Virus record (IMG/VR): IMGVR_UViG_3300046665_000330
Location: 1-25,925 of that record
Reading direction: 5' to 3' (one strand)
From: a virus
Length of the DNA: 25,925 nucleotides
In this document: positions 27 to 23,955 of the stretch, one piece after another
Layout: every line of letters begins with the position of its first letter
How positions within the stretch are numbered: position 1 is the stretch's first letter
The notes under the pieces: model-generated
The model's database searches: none
What the model saw: only the letters and a program-made list of their open reading frames with translations
What the model was told of the DNA's origin: nothing
Translations under genes and position numbers: made by a program

Positions 27-1010
27 GTGAAACCCTTCAGCATCCAGTCGAACAAAGACCTGGCGGAGAAGCTTCGATGGAAATCCTCGAAGATGCTAAC
101 GCTGCTTGGGAAGAACAAATCGGAGCACTACTCGATTCTTTCTCTGCGAAAGAGGGGACCGATTACGAGATATCGGATCCTGCACAATCCTGATAGCTTG
201 ATGCGTGTTGTTCAGTATAAGATCCTAACCCAGATACTGAATAAAATTGAGGTTCCGGAGTACGTCCATGCCTTTGAGAAGGGCAAGAGTATTCCGAAGA
301 TGGCCGAAAGCCATGTGGGCAAGGATATGGTCGTGAGTATCGACTTAGAAGATTTTTTCACTTCTATCAAGCAATACCAGCTTTTCGATTTGTTCCAGCA
401 TCTTGGCTTCAGCCAAGCACCAGCTAGAACTCTGTCAGAACTTTGTACTTATGAGTCATTCGTCCCACAAGGAGCATTGACCAGTCCAAAGATCAGTAAC
501 ATCATTACTGCACTGACATTCGGGCCTGCTATCAAAGAGTTCTGTGATGAGAACAATCTGACGCTCAGCATCTATGCTGACGACATCACAATCTCGATGG
601 ATGCAGAGACGCGAGAGAAGTTAGGGAAAGGTATTGTTGGAAAGATTCTTCAGAAAGTATCAACCGAAGTTGGACGCTATCGATTCAGAGTCAATAAGTC
701 GAAGACCAAGGTTATGCGCTATTTCCAACGGCAATATGTATGCGGAGCCGTTGTGAACGTCAAGGTCAATCTGCAAAAATCTGAGCGTAACAAACTCAGG
801 GCTATGGTTTACAACTGCAACAAGAACGGTGTCGAAGCGGAGGCCGCTAGATCCGGTATCAGTGCAGAGTTGTTCTACAGTAAACTAATGGGGCGATTGA
901 ACTGGTTCAGTCAGCTGAATCCCACAGCTGGTGCTCGTTTGAAATCAAAGCTAAGACAAATCGATATGGGCAAGCAAGAAAGCGATCCTATCGTCGCAGA
1001 GGAAACGTAA
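27..1010 (+). CDS. Retron-type reverse transcriptase
   Basis: RNA-directed DNA polymerase of the retron/bacterial RT group. Visible motifs: palm motif A SIDLEDFF (catalytic Asp106), the retron-like (N)AxxH variant AESH at 93-96, PQGALTSP at 147-154, the catalytic YADD box at 183-186, the lysine-rich VNKSKTK motif at 222-228, and VCG at 238-240, where retron RTs usually have VTG. A short thumb ends in GRLNW (289-293). At 327 residues it has the size of a stand-alone retron RT, with no maturase or endonuclease domain. QGxxxSP rather than the SQ form argues against a diversity-generating retroelement. The GTG at 27 has no clear ribosome site and the frame stays open to the left edge, so the true start may lie outside the window. 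A structured intergenic region and a terminator follow. The RT assignment is firm; retron membership is likely but needs its ncRNA. Confidence 0.88.
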   Translation: MKPFSIQSNKDLAEKLRWKSSKMLTLLGKNKSEHYSILSLRKRGPITRYRILHNPDSLMRVVQYKILTQILNKIEVPEYVHAFEKGKSIPKMAESHVGKDMVVSIDLEDFFTSIKQYQLFDLFQHLGFSQAPARTLSELCTYESFVPQGALTSPKISNIITALTFGPAIKEFCDENNLTLSIYADDITISMDAETREKLGKGIVGKILQKVSTEVGRYRFRVNKSKTKVMRYFQRQYVCGAVVNVKVNLQKSERNKLRAMVYNCNKNGVEAEAARSGISAELFYSKLMGRLNWFSQLNPTAGARLKSKLRQIDMGKQESDPIVAEET

Positions 1011-6523: not shown

Positions 6524-7246
6524 TTAATCCTGAGTTAGTATGAGATCAGCCTGAATCTCAGGCTTACGTAAATCTTTGATAGATTCTCCATCGAATCCTA
6601 TTTTAGTCAAAAACTCTTTATACTTTGAGTTGTTAGATGTTCTCTTGAATATTTTAGCTAAAGTGCTGTAGCACATACCATATTTTTTAGCAAGAACAAT
6701 TATAGAAGGAGTTTCCATAGAGATGTACTCTTTAATTATTTGAATCAAAGTCGGTTCATCTACGAGTCTTGATTTATCCGAGGAGGCCTTCCAAGCTTTT
6801 TTTATGGCACTAGCTACTTTTTCAGGATTAGCTTCTTGATACGCTTTAACACCTGCAATCTGATTAGCAAATCCGCGCTCCTGTTTAGTTGCTGAAATCT
6901 TAGCTCTAGTTGCTTCGTTCATTTCCGGACGTTCAGCAATGCCTGAAATGTTGTAACCAGTTTTTGCAGATTTGAACCAATCTAAATAAACTTGTTCTAG
7001 AATTTCTAATTTCGATTCTTCTACTGTCTCTAAGACTTCAAAATAAAATTTCTCTAACCCGTGTTTATTAACAGAATTTTGTAATTTTTCATTTTCATGT
7101 CTTTTATTTTCAAGAGCCCATAAATGCTGAGTATATCTTCTAGCGCCTTTTGAAGTGGACCCGATGTATATTTTACTAGTAACTACATTTACGATTTTGT
7201 ATATACAAGGTTTGTTGATATCAAAGTTGTTATGTATGAGATTCAT
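6524..7246 (-). CDS. GIY-YIG homing endonuclease
   Basis: This 240-residue free-standing homing endonuclease has the GIY-YIG domain at about 13-100: CIYKI (14-18, in the GIY position), IYIGS (26-30), an Arg pair before YTQH (36-37), a Glu-rich helix holding the likely catalytic Glu (81-84), and GYNISG. A NUMOD3-like motif follows (NEATRAKISATKQERG), then a helix-turn-helix region at about 160-200 (ISMETPSIIVLAKKYGM), which should read the DNA target. The gene is clearly more AT-rich than its neighbours, a sign of recent transfer. It sits between sheath and tube without breaking either. The ATG at 7244-7246 has only GGAAG set too close, so initiation may be weak. Confidence 0.88.
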   Translation of the reverse strand: MNLIHNNFDINKPCIYKIVNVVTSKIYIGSTSKGARRYTQHLWALENKRHENEKLQNSVNKHGLEKFYFEVLETVEESKLEILEQVYLDWFKSAKTGYNISGIAERPEMNEATRAKISATKQERGFANQIAGVKAYQEANPEKVASAIKKAWKASSDKSRLVDEPTLIQIIKEYISMETPSIIVLAKKYGMCYSTLAKIFKRTSNNSKYKEFLTKIGFDGESIKDLRKPEIQADLILTQD

Positions 7247-12491: not shown

Positions 12492-12809
12492 TCAAGTATT
12501 GTAATTCTGCCCGTACAGTTTGTCAATTTTTTCCATGATCTTGCGATCTTGGTGCTGGAAGTATTTGTGAACTCCAAACATACCTGTACCTATGGCTGCT
12601 GCTCCACCAACTCCAACCTTTACTCGTGACTGGAATGTGCGACCAGCTTCTACATGTGCCATGCGTTTAGCACGAAGAGCTGTAAGTCCCGTATCCTCAG
12701 CCTCACGCATAACACGAGCTTTTGTTGCCCATTCCTTTGCGCTCTTGCCTGATACCGTATCAAGCATTTTGAGGGTCTTAGATAGGTATTTGTTAAAACT
12801 ACCTGCCAT
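12492..12809 (-). CDS. Small protein with glycine-rich membrane segment
   Basis: This 105-residue basic protein starts MAGSFNKYLSKTLKML, which resembles the NKYLEKIA signal seen in the head block but lacks the E and IA. A helix rich in Arg and Ala follows, then a Gly/Ala hydrophobic segment (VGVGGAAAIGTGMFGV, about 69-84) that could span a membrane, and a charged tail. AAGGA precedes the ATG at 8 bases. It may be a distant member of the packaged small-protein family, or an unrelated membrane protein. Confidence 0.6.
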   Translation of the reverse strand: MAGSFNKYLSKTLKMLDTVSGKSAKEWATKARVMREAEDTGLTALRAKRMAHVEAGRTFQSRVKVGVGGAAAIGTGMFGVHKYFQHQDRKIMEKIDKLYGQNYNT

Positions 12810-14815: not shown

Positions 14816-15709
14816 TTAGAAGTTTAGAACAACTGCACCATTTACGTTACCGATACCTGCGCCTACAGCTTCATAGGTGTGGAACTCGATAATGTCTGCT
14901 TCAGTCTTCAGGAAGACTGTAGGAGCTTGAAGCTCATAGAACTGACCTAGGTAGTTCTGAGGAGCAAAAACAAGTGCTTGGTTCGTCGGGAGGATGTTAG
15001 CCTTGTTCGTGGTGATGATCTTGTAACCGAAGAAGTTATCAAGAGTCGCTTCGCCTTGGAACAGAGCTGATGCTGCCGGTGAGCCTACGTCAGTTGCTGC
15101 AAAAGTCAGCAGGTCTGCGTACATTGATTGTGTCATAAGGATACAACCAACTGGTAGCTTGTTCAGAAGCATGAACTTGATACCAGCCATCAGGTTAGCC
15201 TTAGTAAAGCCACCAGCGATGGTATGGACGTTGCTGTTTGCCGTAGCAATTGAGATGATGTTATTGTAGAAGTTAACGTCTTCTTGTTCCTGAATATCCT
15301 TAACGCTGTTTTCTTGAAGGATAGTACGAATGTCGGTACGGTATGTAGCTAGTTCGAACTTGCTCTTACGGAAGTCAGCTGATTGGATCTTTTGGAACGT
15401 AACTGGATAACGTTGGGTCTTCCAGTAACGAATTTCCGGACGGCCAAGGAACGGAGCAGTAGCTGCTACTGAATCAGGTTCCTTTTCAACGATAACCGTC
15501 GGTTCTTCCGTCAGTTGGCGATCAAGCTCTGAAGCTGTGATTTGAACTGGTGTAAGAATCTTACGGGTAAAGCCGTCTTCACGAAGCTTCTGACGTACGA
15601 AAGCTGACATTGCAGCTGAAGCTTCTTTTGTATGACCTTGGTCAATCTTATCTAGGAAAGATTGATTCAGGAATTGTACGTTTACGGTTTCTGTAGTGTA
15701 TGCGCTCAT
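14816..15709 (-). CDS. Probable major capsid protein (HK97 fold)
   Basis: This 297-residue protein has the layout of an HK97-type shell subunit: a helical N-terminal arm (about 1-60), an E-loop-like segment (PEIRYWKTQRYPVTFQKI), a spine-helix region (TRDIRTIL-like through NFYNNIISIA) and a C-terminal A-domain with alternating strands (NFFGYKIITTNKANILP, ALVFAPQNYLGQFYELQAP). It would build the icosahedral head. K-E-A-S at 28-31 matches the K-x-A-S peptide repeated in the head block, so the N-terminal arm may be trimmed during maturation. The start has AGGAAAATAAA before ATG. It follows the decoration gene by 12 bases and is the last gene before a terminator. It is short for a jumbo-phage capsid protein, but position and composition agree. 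Confidence 0.75.
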   Translation of the reverse strand: MSAYTTETVNVQFLNQSFLDKIDQGHTKEASAAMSAFVRQKLREDGFTRKILTPVQITASELDRQLTEEPTVIVEKEPDSVAATAPFLGRPEIRYWKTQRYPVTFQKIQSADFRKSKFELATYRTDIRTILQENSVKDIQEQEDVNFYNNIISIATANSNVHTIAGGFTKANLMAGIKFMLLNKLPVGCILMTQSMYADLLTFAATDVGSPAASALFQGEATLDNFFGYKIITTNKANILPTNQALVFAPQNYLGQFYELQAPTVFLKTEADIIEFHTYEAVGAGIGNVNGAVVLNF

Positions 15710-16266: not shown

Positions 16267-16524
16267 TTATTTTTTATCGTTGCGATGCTTAATTTTTGAA
16301 TAAAGCTTACCGCCAGCAAGACCGCCTAAATATCCGCCGACGCCTGCACCGACAACAGCTCCGACAGGACCAGCAACACTACCTGCTGCACCGCCAAGTC
16401 CTAATCCAATACCGCCAGTAATAGTACCAGCTACAGTACCTCCCAACTTGTCGCCCTTCTTAGCACCGCGGTATCCGCCAATTACGTTAGTAATTGCAAT
16501 TTTCTCTAGATATTTATTTCCCAT
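16267..16524 (-). CDS. NKYLEKIA protein with glycine-zipper segment
   Basis: This 85-residue protein starts MGNKYLEKIAIT, the signal shared by six proteins here. After a basic stretch (GYRGAKKGDK) comes a glycine-zipper region (GGTVAGTITGGIGLG to YLGGLAGG, about 28-72), then a basic tail (KIKHRNDKK). Glycine zippers often insert into membranes and oligomerise. With a head-targeting signal in front, a role after ejection at the host membrane is possible. It is the last gene of the head block, 5 bases after the previous stop, and ends before a terminator. Confidence 0.75.
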   Translation of the reverse strand: MGNKYLEKIAITNVIGGYRGAKKGDKLGGTVAGTITGGIGLGLGGAAGSVAGPVGAVVGAGVGGYLGGLAGGKLYSKIKHRNDKK

Positions 16525-16529
16525 GATTA

Positions 16530-17129
16530 TTAGCTCAGCATGAATTCAAGAAGCGGATCAGTCTTAGGACGAGCCATACCTACACCATTGCCCATGCCCC
16601 AAGGTTCATCCATTGCTGAAGCAACTTTCTGAAGAACTGCTGGAGATACTTTTTGGAGTTGCTCTAGATCTTCTTGTGTAAACTGTGCTGCAGAAGCAAG
16701 CTTAGAAAGTTGCTCTGGAATCTCTATAGGCTGTTTGGTGGCTTCGATAAGTTCAGCTTGATGTTCGGAAGCTTGTTTCTCAATCTCAGCCTTTAGGCCT
16801 TCGATTTGAGCTTCTAGAGCATCAATGTATTCAGCTGTCTTGTTTAGAAGTTCAACTGTGGGATCTTCGTCAATTTCAAGAACGAAATTGGAGAGTTCAG
16901 CAACGTTAATGTTTGCTGCTTTAACAAGCTTTACAGCTTCTTCGTGATCAACGCCCTTCATGGCTAGAGCTGAAGTAGCCTCTTTTTCCATGATATGTTG
17001 AGCTACTTGATAACGAGCATCTGCATCGCTAAAACCAGCTTGCTTAAGGTGTTCGATTGCGACAGCTTCAGGAGTTGCCAGACGAACTGTTTCAGCGTGG
17101 TCTTTAAGGATTGTTGATAGTTTAGTCAT
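16530..17129 (-). CDS. Scaffold-like helical head protein
   Basis: This 199-residue, nearly all-helical protein has a coiled-coil region at about 95-130 (YIDALEAQIEGLKAEIEKQA). It has four K-x-A-S/T sites: KEAT 49-52, KQAS 118-121, KLAS 143-146 and KVAS 168-171. A GxDxxxAVxLVK module lies at 54-72 (SALAMKGVDHEEAVKLVKAA), with a looser copy before it. Size, helix content and repeated sites fit a scaffold or core protein that the maturation protease cuts up. Its start overlaps the previous gene's end by 8 bases. Confidence 0.65.
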   Translation of the reverse strand: MTKLSTILKDHAETVRLATPEAVAIEHLKQAGFSDADARYQVAQHIMEKEATSALAMKGVDHEEAVKLVKAANINVAELSNFVLEIDEDPTVELLNKTAEYIDALEAQIEGLKAEIEKQASEHQAELIEATKQPIEIPEQLSKLASAAQFTQEDLEQLQKVSPAVLQKVASAMDEPWGMGNGVGMARPKTDPLLEFMLS

Positions 17130-17613
17130 TTTGTTTACGTCTTTTCTCGATTACGCTTTTAGCGTGGTTGTGTCTGAAGTTATCAGCGTAAGCTGCGCCT
17201 GGAATAATACCTACTGCAGCTCCAGCAACTCCACCCATAGCTCTACCTGTATTTTGGGTTTTCTGTTTAATCATGTCGTGAGCATACACTGCAAAGCCTT
17301 TTGCCTCACGTTCCGGAGTTTTACCACCTGCCATAAGAGTTCTATACGCCTCTGCACCGAACTTCTTACCTTGCTTGGCACCAATCTTTGCTCCGATTTT
17401 ACTACCAAGCGTTGCTCCCGCATGATGTCCTAATCCAGCACCTAAGCCTACTACACCTATACCTAGAAGGCTTTTTCCAAAATTTTTAAGACTTGCACCA
17501 CCAGCAGTGGCGTATTCTACGTCGTAGTCTCTCCTTTCTTTTCCGGACAGAGTCTTTTTATACTCTTTACTCGGAAATAGAGAAGCAACTTTCTCTAGGT
17601 ATTTATTGGACAT
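17122..17613 (-). CDS. NKYLEKVA protein with Gly/Ala membrane-like segments
   Basis: This 163-residue protein starts MSNKYLEKVASL. Two Gly/Ala hydrophobic segments follow: GIGVVGLGAGLGHHAGATLG (about 51-70) and MGGVAGAAVGIIPGAAYA (about 126-143), separated by a Lys-rich region (KIGAKIGAKQGKKFG). The C-terminus is strongly basic (ending KRRKQND). No enzyme motif. It overlaps both neighbours (11 bases before, 8 bases after), so it belongs to one tightly coupled operon. Likely an internal head protein of unknown action. Confidence 0.72.
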   Translation of the reverse strand: MSNKYLEKVASLFPSKEYKKTLSGKERRDYDVEYATAGGASLKNFGKSLLGIGVVGLGAGLGHHAGATLGSKIGAKIGAKQGKKFGAEAYRTLMAGGKTPEREAKGFAVYAHDMIKQKTQNTGRAMGGVAGAAVGIIPGAAYADNFRHNHAKSVIEKRRKQND

Positions 17614-18028
17614 GTTTGTTAATCTGTTTATTTAGTTTAACACCGGCATAATCTGCCGCTAGTCCAGCTGCCCCGCTCAATGCCATAATTTTAGCATTGT
17701 GGAACTTAGCTCCTTGACCAAACATTTTCGGTGCCGAGTTCATGGCTTTATGGGCAGCGAAGCCGGTTGCTGTACCTAGCCCTGCAATGACACCAGTATT
17801 GATCAATTCTTGTTTATGCGTTAAATCTTGCGCAGCTTTATGCAACGCTCTGGCAAAGAGAGACTTCGCTCCTCTGACCAGTTTTGAACCCGGAGCCGTG
17901 ATTGGCGCAGGCTCTTTTACCTTCCCTAGGCTTACATCTTGCTTGACAGTCATACTAGCCGATTTGATTCGACCTTGACTATCTACATCAAAATTCAGAC
18001 TAGCGATTTTTTCAAGATATTTATTCAT
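17603..18028 (-). CDS. NKYLEKIA protein, 141 residues
   Basis: It starts MNKYLEKIASLNFDVDSQGR. A basic middle (KLVRGAKSLFARALHKAAQD) is followed by two hydrophobic stretches (TGVIAGLGTATGFAAH and KIMALSGAAGLAADYAG) and a short basic end. It is the first gene after the terminator at 18041, and the next gene overlaps it by 11 bases. The Shine-Dalgarno site is weak (TAGG). No known enzyme family. Confidence 0.72.
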   Translation of the reverse strand: MNKYLEKIASLNFDVDSQGRIKSASMTVKQDVSLGKVKEPAPITAPGSKLVRGAKSLFARALHKAAQDLTHKQELINTGVIAGLGTATGFAAHKAMNSAPKMFGQGAKFHNAKIMALSGAAGLAADYAGVKLNKQINKHVQ

Positions 18029-18040
18029 AGCCTAATATGC

Positions 18041-18074
18041 AAAAACCCCTCTACATCGAGGATACAGAGGGGTT
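18041..18074 (-). terminator. Terminator after 18092-18388
   Basis: AAACCCCTCT/AGAGGGGTTT (18043-18052, 18065-18074), a 10-bp stem with a 12-base loop. On the minus strand it is followed by TTTTTGC. It closes the frameshift pair. Confidence 0.85.
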
Positions 18075-18091
18075 TGTTCTTTATAAAAAAT

Positions 18092-18388
18092 TTACGCTAG
18101 TTCAGCGGCTTTCTTTTCTACTAGATCAACAGCGTTATCAAAGTCAACACCAGCTTCGACTAGAAGTCCGACAGCGGCTTGTTTCTCTTGATCTTTGCTC
18201 TTACCTTTTGCGGCCAACACGCCCATACCAGCACCAACTGCTGCTGCACCTGCTACGCCTGCAGCAACTCTGGTCTTATTAAGTGAACGGGTTTCGCCAA
18301 GAATATTCTTTGTTGCGCCACCCGTACCTGGGATACGTGTTACCTTAGGAGCTAACGAAGTGCCTGCTACTTTACCTGCCAGTTGCAA
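18092..18388 (-). CDS. Downstream frame of a probable -1 frameshift fusion
   Basis: As a separate ORF this would start at TTG with no good ribosome site. The frame is open upstream to 18415, where it meets the end of the previous gene at A AAA AAG, so it is probably read as a -1 frameshift extension of 107 residues (total about 391). It contains a Gly/Ala membrane-like segment (VAAGVAGAAAVGAGMGVLAA) and, near the end, a third copy of the module found twice upstream (GLLVEAGVDFDNAVDLVEKK). A single-gene reading with a sequencing slip in the A run, or weak TTG initiation, would give the same picture. Confidence 0.62.
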   Translation of the reverse strand: MQLAGKVAGTSLAPKVTRIPGTGGATKNILGETRSLNKTRVAAGVAGAAAVGAGMGVLAAKGKSKDQEKQAAVGLLVEAGVDFDNAVDLVEKKAAELA

Positions 18389-18405
18389 GACACCCGCTTC
18401 TTTCG

Positions 18406-19266
18406 TTAGCCCAGCTTTTTTACCAAGTTTACTGCCGTTTCAAAATCGAAACCAGCACCGATGAAGTGCGAAAGAGCAGCTTGCTTAATTTGTGAAGCTT
18501 CTTCACGTTCGATCTCAGCAGCAGCTTCCTTGACCATGTTTACTGCGTCTTCGAAGTCGAAGCCTTGGCCTACGAGTTCTGAAACTGCAGCAGCCTTTTC
18601 TTGGCCAGCCGTTACCCAACCACCAGTTTGAACTTGGTTAGGAGCTTGATCATTGATAGCGCCTTCGTCTTTAGCAACGCCAGGAGCAGGGTTTTGATCA
18701 ACGGGAGCAGCGCCGCGAGCCATTGCGTCAGCAACGATTGCGTCGAAAATTTGGTTGATAGTACCGCCATTGCCCTTACCGTCTGTGCCGGGTTGGTTCT
18801 GAATGACAGCATCTTGTTCAGCTACTTGAGCTGCAAGATCAATTTGAGTCTTGTTGGGTACAGCATTGCCAATACCATTCATGGTATTTTGGTCACCTAC
18901 TGAAGCCAGCTTCTCAAGAAGAGCTTCGGCTAGTGCCTTGCCTGCGTCAGCAGCTTGTTTGTTCATAGTATCCTCTGGTTTTACTTGATCAAGTTTAATG
19001 GATGCAACTTTTTGCATTACTTCTTTTGCTAAGTCAGCGCCTTTAGCCGCAGCTTCTTTGACACGTTCATCAGCATCGTTCTTCTCTTTAGCGTCCTTGA
19101 CTTCTTCCTTAGCTTCCTTTACATCTTTGTCAGCTTTGTCGATAGCCTTTTCAGCCTTATCTTCATCTTTCTTTTCTTCTTTCTCTGTATCTTCACTAGC
19201 TACTTTATGTAGACCAGCTTCAGTTTCCAGATCTTTAAGAAGACCGTCTAGAGTGAAACTCATCAT
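18406..19266 (-). CDS. Scaffold-like head protein with frameshift site
   Basis: This 286-residue protein has K-x-A-S sites at 21-24 (LHKVAS), 86-89 (MQKVAS) and 119-122 (LEKLAS). Residues 25-80 are a highly charged helix of Glu, Lys and Asp. Residues 130-220 are Asn/Gly/Gln-rich and probably flexible. Two copies of a 24-residue module end it (227-250, 262-285: G-x-G/A-G-F-D-F-E-x-A-V-N-x-V-K). The zero frame stops three codons after the slippery A AAA AAG (18415-18421). AAGGAT precedes the ATG. Next to the protease, it fits a scaffold or core protein processed during head maturation. Confidence 0.68.
   Translation of the reverse strand: MMSFTLDGLLKDLETEAGLHKVASEDTEKEEKKDEDKAEKAIDKADKDVKEAKEEVKDAKEKNDADERVKEAAAKGADLAKEVMQKVASIKLDQVKPEDTMNKQAADAGKALAEALLEKLASVGDQNTMNGIGNAVPNKTQIDLAAQVAEQDAVIQNQPGTDGKGNGGTINQIFDAIVADAMARGAAPVDQNPAPGVAKDEGAINDQAPNQVQTGGWVTAGQEKAAAVSELVGQGFDFEDAVNMVKEAAAEIEREEASQIKQAALSHFIGAGFDFETAVNLVKKLG
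18415..18421 (-). promoter_or_regulatory. A AAA AAG slippery heptamer
   Basis: On the minus strand the zero frame reads GTA AAA AAG CTG GGC TAA. The heptamer is in the correct phase for a -1 shift, after which the frame runs GCT GGG CTA ACG and stays open for 107 codons. A AAA AAG is the same site used in E. coli dnaX. A weak stem (CTTGC/GCAGG) lies about 23 bases downstream; no upstream Shine-Dalgarno-like stimulator was found. Confidence 0.65.
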
Positions 19267-19286
19267 GACTAATATCCTTTTTAACG

Positions 19287-19307
19287 AGGCTACGTGGATT
19301 GTAGCCT
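19287..19307. other. Hairpin between protease and 18406 gene
   Basis: AGGCTAC/GTAGCCT with a 7-base loop. The T run is poor on either strand (minus: CGTTAAAAAGG). Possibly a processing or attenuating hairpin just before the next Shine-Dalgarno site. Confidence 0.45.
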
Positions 19308-19322
19308 TTTGAAAATCTTAGG

Positions 19323-20837
19323 TCAATTCTTTTTCTTCTGAACCAACTTAAGCATCGCTGTTTTTGCGAGTTTGTAAGTTAGCTTATAGTCAGAAGCAGA
19401 TTTAACTAAAACTATTTTAACACCATCTGAAGTCTTGTTCAATTCTTGTTCTTTCATTTTACGTTCGATAACTTGCGTAATATACCACTTTGCTGCGAGG
19501 GCAGCGCCACCGATGGCAGCAATGGCAGAAAGAACCTTCATTAGACCTGACTTGTTCTCTTCTTCTGACTTCAGGTTTTGTTCACGGAACTTCTCATACA
19601 TAGTAGGTTCAATGTGTGGGCCATTGCCTACATAACCTACATTAGTTCCTTGCATAAATCCATAAGTCGAAGCTTGTTTGTTCAACGATACACGCTCTTC
19701 CACATACTGAGGTAGATACGAGGAATCCTGCATATGAGGAAGCATAGCGTGAACGATACCGATATTTGGTTCTGTTATTTCGCCAAAATCACGGTCGAAT
19801 TCGGGGAGTGAGCTAATACCAGCACGGTCAAAGTACGCAGCAGCCATTGGGCCAATACCACGTCCCTCTTCACCCATTAGTTTACGTCCAATTAGTTCAG
19901 CAAGAAAACCAATCGAAGGGCTAATACCAAGATGAGCAAAGGTACTAAAAGTTTCATTAAGCTTATAATTTCGGAGAACGTCAATGACGTCACCTTGCGG
20001 ATCACTAACTCGTGATACAAGATTATCAAGACTAGGATCGATAGATACAACATCGCCGTCAATCTCCTTCGTTAATTCTGAAAGCTTTTTGAGAGTAGCG
20101 CTCTTTTGAAGAGGCAGATCGTTAAGACCAGCCATGAGTGCTTCATCAACAGATCCAACAACTGCGCTTTCAGATGCTATTTTTTGTAGAACGGCGCTAG
20201 TTACGTCAGCTGGACGAAACACAATAGAAATGTCGAAAAATCGTAATGGAGCCAGGTTTAGAGCCATGACCTTACGACCATCAGGGAATACCTTACCAAG
20301 CTGTTCGCTCAAGTGTTCACAATACTGTTCACGAGTCTTTGCCTTGTTACCGCAAATAGAGCATACGTCGAATGGAGTACGGCAAGCCATTGAAGTCTTA
20401 GGCCAGTCCCCGCTCTCGATACGATCAACGATGTCAGGGGCTTTGTCATTCCATAGTTCAGCGATAAGTTCAACACGGTGCATTCTATCGTTATAGACAG
20501 AGTACACAACTTGACCTATGGCGATTTCTGGATTTTTGTTTACGTGGTTACGGAAAATATGGGCAGGAGCCGTCTCAAAGGTATTGTGATAATCAATGAG
20601 GTTGCTTTCTGGAAAGTAGTCGGCATTACGATTGGCACCGTAATACTCTCCTGCGCCCATAGCAAGAATGTGAAGATACGTCTTACCCTGTACTGGGGTA
20701 ATTTTGGAAGCGAATTCTTGGATGCGAGAATCCGTAGCCTGTTTGATAAGACTGCCTGTAAGATCCTTAGGATCGAGAATAGTTACCTGTGGTTCGTCAC
20801 GGTAAAAAGAAGACGTATCGATTAGTTTTGTTAGCAT
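19323..20837 (-). CDS. Probable prohead maturation protease
   Basis: This 504-residue protein has an N-terminal domain (about 1-215) resembling capsid-assembly serine proteases: His98 in FRNHVNKNPEIAIGQV and Ser149 in WPKTSMACR are the likely catalytic pair. A cysteine/histidine group follows (C159, C162, C173, H175; VCSICGN... YCEHL) that may bind zinc. Right after the domain comes LQKIAS (217-222), then LQKSAT, LNKQAS and LVKSAS, which may be self-cleavage sites. A membrane-like helix lies at about 431-455. It would cut scaffold, internal and capsid proteins before DNA packaging. Twice the length of simple prohead proteases, so the C-terminal half may act as scaffold. Confidence 0.68.
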   Translation of the reverse strand: MLTKLIDTSSFYRDEPQVTILDPKDLTGSLIKQATDSRIQEFASKITPVQGKTYLHILAMGAGEYYGANRNADYFPESNLIDYHNTFETAPAHIFRNHVNKNPEIAIGQVVYSVYNDRMHRVELIAELWNDKAPDIVDRIESGDWPKTSMACRTPFDVCSICGNKAKTREQYCEHLSEQLGKVFPDGRKVMALNLAPLRFFDISIVFRPADVTSAVLQKIASESAVVGSVDEALMAGLNDLPLQKSATLKKLSELTKEIDGDVVSIDPSLDNLVSRVSDPQGDVIDVLRNYKLNETFSTFAHLGISPSIGFLAELIGRKLMGEEGRGIGPMAAAYFDRAGISSLPEFDRDFGEITEPNIGIVHAMLPHMQDSSYLPQYVEERVSLNKQASTYGFMQGTNVGYVGNGPHIEPTMYEKFREQNLKSEEENKSGLMKVLSAIAAIGGAALAAKWYITQVIERKMKEQELNKTSDGVKIVLVKSASDYKLTYKLAKTAMLKLVQKKKN

Positions 20838-20861
20838 AATTCTATTTTACAGGCAGTGCGT

Positions 20862-21392
20862 TTAATTACGAATGTATTTGTTATAACCGTGTTCTAATAC
20901 TGTCCCTACTGCTGCTCCAGCGACACCGCCAACGATAGTGTTCTTAACGCCTCTAAGACCAACTCCAACTAAAGATTCATTATTTTTACGAGTAGTCTTA
21001 TTGACGCCCTCTAACGCACCTGCTGCCGTACCTACTGAAACAATGGGGCGCTGTTTTGCAAAATGCAACGCATCTCTAGCAGCTCGTGCAACGCTGGCTT
21101 GTTTTTCTTGAGAAGGAGTAAGTTTAAGGTTTACAGTTACCTTAGGTTTCTTTTTCAGCGCTTCTGAGATACCCTTAAGTTCATTCAAAGACTGAGCTTC
21201 TATTACACTGCGATGTTTATTATCTTGCTTATTCTCTAGACTATTTGCATAATTAGCAGCACCAAGAGTAAGACCAGTAGCAGACATGCCTAGACCAATT
21301 TTTGAAGTGGTAGAGCTTCTGTTCCAACCTTTTGCGAAGCTCTTTCCGAAATTGGAGATAGAGGCGATTTTTTCTAGGTACTTATTTTCCAT
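20862..21392 (-). CDS. NKYLEKIA protein, 176 residues
   Basis: It starts MENKYLEKIASISNFGKSFA. Features: a short hydrophobic segment (IGLGMSATGLTLGAANYA, about 32-49), a Lys-rich middle with KEKQAS-type site (SQEKQASVARAARD), and a C-terminal Gly/Ala segment (KNTIVGGVAGAAVGTVLEHG). It overlaps the ADP-ribosyltransferase-like gene by 11 bases and lies 24 bases before the protease gene. No enzyme motif. Likely packaged and cut near the signal. Confidence 0.72.
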   Translation of the reverse strand: MENKYLEKIASISNFGKSFAKGWNRSSTTSKIGLGMSATGLTLGAANYANSLENKQDNKHRSVIEAQSLNELKGISEALKKKPKVTVNLKLTPSQEKQASVARAARDALHFAKQRPIVSVGTAAGALEGVNKTTRKNNESLVGVGLRGVKNTIVGGVAGAAVGTVLEHGYNKYIRN

Positions 21393-22164
21393 GTTTTTTA
21401 AATTGGTTAGCGGCGTAGGCTAAACCTCCACCGATCATTGCAGCGCCCATTGCAGCCTTACCAGTACCCTTCAAGAAACGTTTAGTATTCGCTTTCGCAA
21501 ATTCTCTAATTTCACCAAGAGAATTCTTCTGATACGCCTTAGAACCCTCCATATACTTGTTTGAAACGTTGCCTTTATTGGTAAAGACTTCTTTTTCAAG
21601 TGTTGAGTATATAGTGCGCTTCTGTTGAGTTTTTGCAAACTTGGGAGAGAAGGCGTCTTCGTTTACCGTTTTGAAACTTGTTTTTACTTCAGGGTTCCGT
21701 ACCTTACGAAATTCGTCTTTTTTCCAAGTAGGAGCGTTGATATTAATTACACCCTTAGAACTTTCTTTACCAGGAATAGCATCTTTAAGACGTCCCACCA
21801 TATCGTGTATGTTAAAAGTACCATTCTCAATACGTGATGCTTGATTCGCATAGCTGTGTGCTTGCATTTTACTTCTAGTCATAAACGTTAAGTTGTCTGA
21901 CTTTAAATTTTGGCCTGTCGCATCTTGAGCGATATCGATAATACCTTTCTTCGCTCTTGGTTTAAGACCGTCTTTAAGAATTTGTTCTTTATTAGCAGCA
22001 GAGGTTCCGTGGTAAAGAGTCTCACGGCCAGTTATATGGCCACCGTGGTACTGCTTATTAACTACAGACGCACCGAGAACAGCAGCTCCACCACCAGCTG
22101 CTGTTTTCTGCTTTTTAGAAAAATGCTCTTTATCAGCGGCTATTTTTTCTAAATACTTATTCAT
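21382..22164 (-). CDS. NKYLEKIA protein with ADP-ribosyltransferase-like domain
   Basis: This 260-residue protein starts MNKYLEKIAADKEHF. A likely catalytic domain covers about 44-210. LYHGTSAANKEQILKDGL (50-67) is the first motif of PARP/KptA-like ADP-ribosyltransferases (His52); LTFMTRSKMQAHSYANQA (92-109) fits the second region with Tyr105; STLEKEVFTNKGNVSNKYM (187-205) fits the third, with Glu190 or Glu192 as candidate acid. Such enzymes transfer ADP-ribose from NAD to a target. The C-terminus has a hydrophobic Gly/Ala helix (KAAMGAAMIGGGLAYAANQF). A head-targeting-like signal on such an enzyme parallels T4 Alt, which is injected to modify host RNA polymerase. The target here is unknown. 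Confidence 0.6.
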   Translation of the reverse strand: MNKYLEKIAADKEHFSKKQKTAAGGGAAVLGASVVNKQYHGGHITGRETLYHGTSAANKEQILKDGLKPRAKKGIIDIAQDATGQNLKSDNLTFMTRSKMQAHSYANQASRIENGTFNIHDMVGRLKDAIPGKESSKGVININAPTWKKDEFRKVRNPEVKTSFKTVNEDAFSPKFAKTQQKRTIYSTLEKEVFTNKGNVSNKYMEGSKAYQKNSLGEIREFAKANTKRFLKGTGKAAMGAAMIGGGLAYAANQFKKHGK

Positions 22165-22166
22165 GT

Positions 22167-22694
22167 TTATACAAACGACTTAGGTGAGAATGAAGTGTTA
22201 TCTTTCCAACGACCTTCTAGATCCGTAAGGCTCTTGATAGTCATAATATCTACGCCATCGCCGTGAACGGCATTGGTGAGAACAGATTGTAGCAGATTCG
22301 GATCAGTTGCAACCATAGGTGCAAATTGATAAATCGTGTTAGCATAATTTTCAACCTTGGCACGAGGCGCAGATTGAAGAATATGTGAGCTATTAATTGC
22401 TTGGTGTAGGGATTGTAGAAAACGATTGTAGCGGAAATGGTCAACTACGTACTTACCTGTATTAGCCAACATCCAAAGCCCGCCGCCTACTGCGAGACCA
22501 CCAGTTGCTTTACCAGCCTCACGAAAGAAACTTTGTGCAACTTCGTGTTTTGGATCAAATACATTCTTGTCTGTTTTATCAGCAGCTTCTTTTTCTAGCA
22601 ATACTTGTGTAACGAAACCCGCTACAAATTGCTCAGCTAGATCTTCGTCTCCAGCAAACTTCTCAAGACCCAGTTGTTTAACTTCGTTTAACAT
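22167..22694 (-). CDS. Hypothetical head-block protein, 175 residues
   Basis: It starts MLNEVKQLGLEKFAGDEDLA: LEKFA near the N-terminus resembles the LEKIA signal but lacks NKY. LLEKEAADKTDK follows. A Gly-rich hydrophobic segment (GKATGGLAVGGGLWMLAN, about 60-78) may be membrane-active. The rest is helical. AAGGA lies 11 bases before the ATG. It ends 2 bases before the ADP-ribosyltransferase-like gene start, so translation is likely coupled. No family recognised; may be another packaged protein. Confidence 0.65.
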   Translation of the reverse strand: MLNEVKQLGLEKFAGDEDLAEQFVAGFVTQVLLEKEAADKTDKNVFDPKHEVAQSFFREAGKATGGLAVGGGLWMLANTGKYVVDHFRYNRFLQSLHQAINSSHILQSAPRAKVENYANTIYQFAPMVATDPNLLQSVLTNAVHGDGVDIMTIKSLTDLEGRWKDNTSFSPKSFV

Positions 22695-22721
22695 TTTATG
22701 TTGTTCCTTTAATCAATCTTA

Positions 22722-23804
22722 TTAATCACGCTGGAGAGCGCTCCAGACATCGTTACTTCTTCCAGTTGTTTTATCTGTGCCTGGATCGTAGAATGCTGCA
22801 TCTAAAACTGGGCCACCTGCTCTGATAACACCCGATACAGCGCTTGCTGAAGTTCTACCGATAGCCTTTGCTGTGTTCTTAGCTGTTGGCTTACCTAGAG
22901 CTGCAATGTTATTCTTAACAGAGTTGTTAATTGCCTTTCCAGCTGCTGCCGCTGCTCTGAATGGTGTAGACGCTGCAACACCAATAGCCTTACCAGCTAC
23001 ATAAGCAGGGTTTGCTTTTTGAGCTGCATTCATTGCAGACTTAGCACCACCTTGCATCGCCTTATTGAAGATATTAGATTTTACACCTTGAGCAGCATCT
23101 GCTGCACGTTTCTGAAGCTCTGAACGTTCACGTTGTTCACGGACCAGTGCACGAGCCTGTTTGTACAGTTCTGCAAATCCAGTAGCTTCTTTAAGTTGTG
23201 CAACTTTAAACAGTCCAAGCTCTCCAAGTTCACGGTATCCCTTAACCTCGCCAGAAACGAGGATAGAAAGCTCTGAGAAGGTCTTCTCATCCGTGACACA
23301 TGCCAGCTTATCCATCCAAGCGTCATCCTTACCAAGAGCCTTTGCGGCCTTCACAAGCATATCCGCTACTACAATACTATCCATTTCAATACGTTCAAGA
23401 GCTTCTTTGTTAGCTGAAGCCGACTTGATGAGGTATGTAAGCTGTTCTGCTTCGACCAATTGAAGGTCTGTTGCCGATGCTTCTTTTTCTAGTTCTGCCT
23501 TCAGTTCTTCGGTAGTTACTTGGGCAACCTTCTCCTGGAAATTATCAGGAATAGTAGCGGCTGACATAACTTCTGCAAACTTAGCTAGTGGGAATTCTAC
23601 TGTACGATCTTCTGCGTGCTGAAGAATTTTCAAATAAGCAATATTATTCGTTGATTCTACTGCCCGCTTTACTTGTTCTACATTCAGTTCATAAGCGGCT
23701 GCTTGTTTAGCTAGACCTTTGCTCAGAGGAACTTTGTTATTCAGGAAATCTTCAACTGCTTGAACTGAGATATCCCGAAGAAGTTCAGGGGTTACGTTTG
23801 CCAT
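22722..23804 (-). CDS. Helical head-block protein, scaffold/core-like
   Basis: I chose the ATG at 23804 (MANVTPELL) because GGAG precedes it by 6 bases; an ATG four codons upstream (23816) has no site. The 360-residue protein is helical to about 240, with K-x-A-S sites KEAS (107-110) and KSAS (127-130) and related KQAA and KVAQ. The last 120 residues are Ala/Gly/Lys-rich (KAIGVAASTPFRAAAAAGKA) and may bind DNA or membrane. Charge and repeated sites suggest a core or internal protein cut by the maturation protease. Its start overlaps the 56-residue NKYLEKIA ORF by 20 bases. Confidence 0.68.
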   Translation of the reverse strand: MANVTPELLRDISVQAVEDFLNNKVPLSKGLAKQAAAYELNVEQVKRAVESTNNIAYLKILQHAEDRTVEFPLAKFAEVMSAATIPDNFQEKVAQVTTEELKAELEKEASATDLQLVEAEQLTYLIKSASANKEALERIEMDSIVVADMLVKAAKALGKDDAWMDKLACVTDEKTFSELSILVSGEVKGYRELGELGLFKVAQLKEATGFAELYKQARALVREQRERSELQKRAADAAQGVKSNIFNKAMQGGAKSAMNAAQKANPAYVAGKAIGVAASTPFRAAAAAGKAINNSVKNNIAALGKPTAKNTAKAIGRTSASAVSGVIRAGGPVLDAAFYDPGTDKTTGRSNDVWSALQRD

Positions 23805-23955
23805 TTTTGGCTCCATGTTTCTGTGACTTTATTTTAACCTTGGCAGACAAGGAGACAAAAGGCTTCTTAGGGTGCTTAATAGGCTTTTGACCAGCACGCA
23901 TAGTAAGCTGACCACTCTTCTTCTTTGATGCGATTTTTTCTAGATACTTATTCAT
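23785..23955 (-). CDS. Tiny basic NKYLEKIA protein, 56 residues
   Basis: It starts MNKYLEKIASKKKSGQLTMR. It has 15 Lys, 2 Arg and 2 His but a single acidic residue (in the signal). Rest of the sequence is low in hydrophobics (KPIKHPKKPFVSLSAKVKIK). It begins 2 bases after the previous stop and overlaps the next start by 20 bases, the same coupling style as other genes of the block. Charge and size resemble small DNA-condensing internal head proteins. No strong Shine-Dalgarno site; translation is probably coupled to the gene before it. Confidence 0.68.
   Translation of the reverse strand: MNKYLEKIASKKKSGQLTMRAGQKPIKHPKKPFVSLSAKVKIKSQKHGAKNGKRNP

Follow-up and report, generated by a model that had tools for sequence, protein, structure and literature searches.

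The contents of the heads of large phages, and the way in which they are selected, are known in detail mainly for T4. A viral stretch of 25,925 bases, the whole of one 25.9-kb IMG/VR virus record and referred to here as the window, raises the question of why six genes with unrelated bodies should all begin with the same short peptide, M-x(0-1)-NKYLEK[IV]A. All six starts pointed out in the first-pass annotation are present on the minus strand, while a reversed control pattern has 0 matches in the whole window. Gene calls are mechanical, and the genomes used for comparison are uncultured contigs. The tagged genes, with tag coordinates that begin at the N codon, and one diverged relative are:

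16267..16524, minus strand: tagged candidate cargo 1, 85 aa, glycine-zipper; tag NKYLEKIA at 16518-16495
17122..17613, minus strand: tagged candidate cargo 2, 163 aa; tag NKYLEKVA at 17607-17584; orthologs in L180 and L162 keep the tag
17603..18028, minus strand: tagged candidate cargo 3, 141 aa; tag NKYLEKIA at 18025-18002
20862..21392, minus strand: tagged candidate cargo 4, 176 aa; tag NKYLEKIA at 21386-21363
21382..22164, minus strand: tagged candidate cargo 5, 260 aa, weakly ART-like (KptA/PARP); tag NKYLEKIA at 22161-22138
23785..23955, minus strand: tagged candidate cargo 6, 56 aa, basic; tag NKYLEKIA at 23952-23929
12492..12809, minus strand: homolog of tagged proteins with the diverged tag MAGSFNKYLSKTLK; homologs in L169 and L183 tagged intact

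Worn copies of the tag had been suspected at two further places. The first, 12492-12809, bears this out, as its homologs start with MNKYLEKIAS (L169) and MSNPYLEKAAS (L183); the second, 22167-22694, is ruled out as a decayed tag, being a conserved head protein (the ortholog of gp221 from Salmonella phage Arash) whose LEKFAG belongs to the core motif described below. Among the six DNA copies of the tag, identity is 0.56 at third codon positions and 0.92 at the first two, and it falls to 0.27, the level of unrelated DNA, over the 150 nt downstream. Since synonymous sites differ and the adjoining 150 nt are unrelated, it is the peptide that is under selection, rather than the DNA that was recently duplicated. 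The window also holds a reverse-transcriptase-like protein with a YADD motif (27-1010, plus strand), which adjoins the tail genes and has counterparts of 94% and 58% identity in G001 and G002, and a GIY-YIG-type homing endonuclease-like ORF amid the tail genes (6524-7246, minus strand), with related ORFs elsewhere in the same two genomes.

The exact tag, back-translated, was scanned against 2.9 million viral contigs from IMG/VR and gave 93 stretches. Strict copies number 117 in 38 contigs of one lineage, and 113 of them stand at an N-terminus; outside this lineage, the octapeptide occurs 15 times, 12 times internally and 3 times N-terminally, and the lone outside contig with three N-terminal copies is probably a fragment of the lineage. 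The tagged proteins form about 62 families (63 clusters, one of them spurious) with no detectable similarity between their bodies. N, Y, K, and A are invariant among the collected tags; the search pattern itself restricted K and A, and the alternatives that it permitted for N and Y never turned up. The residue after the Ala is variable. Among the orthologs of cargo 3, N2, K3, K7, and A9 are invariant. Farther relatives carry the variants NVYLEKIA, NPYLEKAA, and NRYLEKAA, and the Arash lineage M[HQE]KE[AS]. In L165 (1004-1330), an N-tagged protein also bears a tag-like NPYLEKIS near its C-terminus, with KQAF just before it. Four near-complete genomes contain 33 copies, every one of them inside the head/RNA-polymerase segment ±8 kb, which covers 27-29% of the genome; judged by this location alone, the tag is not found equally on non-virion proteins. 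A host search in the genome collection had one 3.6-kb MAG contig as its sole match.

Dissimilar as they are, the bodies have common properties. Charge per residue is +0.083 in tagged families vs -0.007 in other genes (p 2e-24), and glycine-zippers occur in 42% of tagged families vs 4% of other genes (p 8e-18), the Pfam glycine-zipper match of cargo 1 being weak and below cut-off (E 0.058). Enzyme-like members include an SNF2 helicase (Pfam E 6e-17), an ATP-ligase-like protein, and the weakly KptA/PARP-like proteins: cargo 5 matches KptA with E 0.0011 and PARP with 0.012, and a fused homolog matches PARP with 3e-4, all below the curated cut-off. The AlphaFold model of cargo 5 was too poor in quality for use.

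The nearest annotated phages, by capsid and protease, are Arash and Vibrio phages D69, D148, and D181, and the order of the head genes in the window is that of Arash:

14816..15709, minus strand: major capsid protein (MCP); conserved predicted cleavage site HTKEA↓SAAM after residue 30
16530..17129, minus strand: ortholog of the Arash head protein gp225, with six copies of the core motif
18092..18421, minus strand: candidate -1 frameshift extension of the scaffold, 107 aa; slippery A AAA AAG at 18421-18415
18406..19266, minus strand: scaffold/core protein, 286 aa; five hydrophobic-x-K-x-A sites
19323..20837, minus strand: prohead protease, 504 aa, T4 gp21-like fold; hydrophobic-x-K-x-A sites ending at 34, 221, 247, 389, 481, and 494
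22167..22694, minus strand: ortholog of the Arash head protein gp221, with the core motif at 10 and at 33
22722..23816, minus strand: ortholog of the Arash head protein gp220, with nine copies of the core motif

These proteins are linked to the tag by its core, hydrophobic-x-K-x-A, whose recurrence in them the first-pass annotation had overlooked. Five head families were compared for 400 patterns: the scaffold, the prohead protease, and three more, each sampled from about 25 phages. The core came out on top, with 773 occurrences vs 109 expected and a z of 64 vs 13 for the runner-up. Followed by Ser, it occurs 227 times vs 8 expected (30-fold), and Ser after the Ala exceeds expectation 4.2x in head proteins and 2.8x in tags. 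In the MCP, the site near residue 30 is single, present in 27 of 28 sequences, and just ahead of the first conserved segment. In the protease, the motif flanks the protease core, and four of the six sites fall within the 19% of the chain that is modelled with low confidence. The protease model (pTM 0.42, confident in its core only) had 5jbl_B and 5jbl_A as its best Foldseek matches in the PDB (probability 1.00, TM 0.56 on the target), T4 gp21 being the sole convincing match. The core motif thus has the expected look of a maturation protease site, which falls short of proof. Known cleavage consensuses give no such signal: the T4 gp21 consensus [LI]-x-E↓[AGS] is at chance level in the pooled head proteins (116 vs 117 expected) and the tag, with no Glu at the corresponding position, does not satisfy it; A-x-E and S-x-E are not enriched; and the cleavage consensuses of T4, SPN3US, and phiKZ, as well as a herpesvirus-like [VLI]-x-A-S, are near or below chance. 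Farther afield, K..A is the top pattern around the protease in the head region of Bacillus phage G (L205), weakly so (17 vs 6.6), where starts such as MKKSRLKKVS and MSKKISRLKKTA are a possible distant version of the tag; in mycobacteriophage I3 the motif is weak (9 vs 3.9).

The closest precedent is the capsid targeting sequence of T4, an N-terminal peptide of about 10 residues on the unrelated, basic internal proteins IPI, IPII, and IPIII, which mediates import into the prohead core and is processed by a gp21-type protease; in IPIII, positions 4 and 7 direct targeting, and positions 8 and 10 processing (PMC9026906). The tag is likewise N-terminal, about 10 residues long, and borne by many unrelated proteins of a phage with a gp21-like protease, and targeting and cleavage are proposed for it; tags without the spacer residue have their Tyr at position 4, which compares with the targeting position 4 of IPIII. 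Y-x-E-x-I-A is common to both peptides, too short a string to prove descent. The core, however, is [LI]-x-E↓A in T4 and hydrophobic-x-K-x-A here, and unlike in T4, the same motif fills the scaffold, the protease, and the MCP, the tagged families number about 62 over the lineage, and multi-tag fusions exist. The first-pass annotation had T4 internal proteins and Alt sharing one type of start. For Alt, the ADP-ribosyltransferase among the T4 cargo, this is not established, because a propeptide of 7 residues is reported (PMC9026906). SPN3US and phiKZ offer a second comparison: their large virions contain many internal and ejected head proteins, including RNA polymerase, and the SPN3US prohead protease gp245 cuts after A-x-E, with Ser preferred after the cut and propeptides mostly of 111-254 residues. 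Besides this make-up of the virion, the likeness would lie in maturation by a prohead protease at a short motif with Ser favoured after the cut, and the difference in the shared short N-terminal tag, which was not found in the available portions of these accounts (PMC10052503, PMC5694885). No published description of the string NKYLEK, or of such a tag system, was found in the literature searched, which lay largely outside subscription journals.

Virion evidence comes from Arash, and concerns homologs or same-slot proteins rather than the NKYLEK-tagged proteins themselves. Mass spectrometry of its virions yielded 116 proteins, about 46% of its genes, a broad proteome for which carry-over was weighed by the authors; it includes gp217, the ortholog of the tagged helicase, with 38 unique peptides, all seven motif-rich head proteins (gp218, 220, 221, 222, 223, 225, and 242), and gp224 (PMC10585845). 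Coverage percentages were set aside as evidence of cleavage, as a figure of 100% from two unique peptides cannot be taken at face value. Arash and the three Vibrio phages share with the window lineage the order of the head genes and the motif-rich head proteins, but their stand-alone cargo is without the full NKYLEK tag. Arash gp224 has a shorter start, M-x-K-E-[AS] (in full M[HQE]KE[SA][ST]), and lies directly behind the scaffold, in the slot of a tagged gene in the window; homology to cargo 3 is undetectable (hhalign probability 0.6%). The Arash helicase is present in virions yet untagged, and no tag is conserved among RNA polymerase orthologs; the start MPKSA of the Arash beta subunit was ruled out as one, since its orthologs do not conserve it. 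As the virion helicase and RNA polymerase of Arash are untagged, the tag would be one of several import routes.

Taken together, NKYLEK[IV]A is probably an N-terminal head-import (capsid-targeting) peptide, and one case of the hydrophobic-x-K-x-A motif used in head assembly by this lineage. The earlier proposal of a head-import tag for ejected effector proteins is best separated into its parts. Import, the best-supported reading given the roughly 62 families and their confinement to the head/RNA-polymerase segment, is the firmest, and the tag very probably serves it. Cleavage after the Ala by the gp21-like protease is reasonably likely on the strength of motif and fold. Ejection of the cargo into the host, suggested by the analogy with T4 and SPN3US, has a little better than an even chance. 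Mechanistically, the tag would recruit its cargo to the prohead core through the scaffold, the protease, or both; the gp21-like protease would then cut the scaffold, itself, the MCP, and the cargo after Ala, as motif, position, and fold suggest; and the freed cargo, mostly small, basic, and glycine-zipper-rich, with enzymes such as the SNF2 helicase, would stay in the head with the DNA and enter the host. Some tags may escape cutting, because the residue after the Ala is variable.

The strongest competitor is that the tag only docks, binding helical repeats of the scaffold without ever being cleaved, so that the recurrence of the motif would reflect contacts between core proteins. Docking without cutting is possible because the core motif is also part of the scaffold repeat: a segment of about 30 residues, LEKAAxVxxLxxxGxxFxxAxxLVKEA, recurs in 18406-19266, 18092-18388, and 16530-17129 with the motif at both ends. 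Bracketing of these repeats, recurrence in gp225-type proteins and in the frameshift extension, and the unfixed residue after the Ala all favour docking alone. The extension belongs to a perfect slippery heptamer directly before the scaffold stop (GTA AAA AAG CTG GGC TAA); LTKEAG follows right after the junction, and a scaffold-type repeat stands at the end. Relatives with 94% and 76% scaffold identity conserve the slippery site and the beginning of the -1 frame, and L163/L181 have a longer in-frame scaffold with a similar end, which suggests that the site yields a frameshifted long scaffold; the stem-loop predicted after it (-26 kcal/mol, z -1.4) is not significant by shuffles.

What makes docking alone unlikely are the single MCP site ahead of the first conserved segment, the low-confidence linkers that house the majority of the protease sites, the excess of Ser after Ala, and the fusions of tagged modules. 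In several phages, these have a tag-like or core motif exactly at the junction (helicase, ligase-like, and ART-like proteins), where a second docking signal would be superfluous. The SNF2 helicase has the tag at its start in L170, L077, and L026, and in G001 is part of a longer ORF with an internal NVYLEKIA ahead of the helicase; the ligase-like protein stands alone in some phages and, when fused, is preceded by NPYLEHIQKQAS or NKYLQKAAF; and cargo 4 and the ART-like cargo 5 are a single 436-aa ORF in L168/G005, with NPFLDKAAS internally at the junction. Several ORFs have two or three internal tags, and in L146 (G008) one tagged 633-aa ORF combines two tags with a HELGH metalloprotease-like motif and a C-terminal DnaJ-like domain (E 3e-4).

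Such multi-tag ORFs, along with the strongly basic cargo, would also suit a tag that merely splits polyproteins, its N-terminal copies being remnants of past fusions and import being driven by the bodies through DNA binding and basic charge; this is improbable, as about 62 stand-alone families retain the tag exactly, its N, Y, K, and A never varying among the collected copies (K and A being restricted by the pattern itself). Even less credible is a signal unrelated to the head (a translation leader, a membrane anchor, or phage-nucleus import of late proteins). The tag is indeed short and N-terminal, and many bodies have glycine-zipper segments, but the scaffold, protease, and MCP all carry its core as their motif, every copy in the four near-complete genomes lies in the head region, and a nucleotide-level signal is excluded because the codons vary synonymously. 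Coincidence or recent local duplication of gene starts, which six neighbouring genes in one window might suggest, is already refuted by the unrelated downstream DNA and by the spread over 38 contigs and about 62 families.

If NKYLEK[IV]A is a head-import peptide, about 62 unknown families would become candidate injected proteins through a tag readable in sequence, a second system for packaging foreign proteins into phage heads would become available, and the shared motif would predict many cleavage sites. A broader proposal, for and against which the chances seem evenly balanced, is that one motif acts as a lineage-wide head code that marks cargo for import, sets where scaffold, protease, and MCP are cut during maturation, and splits multi-cargo fusions; were it true, the cargo repertoire of a large phage lineage would be readable by a simple pattern.
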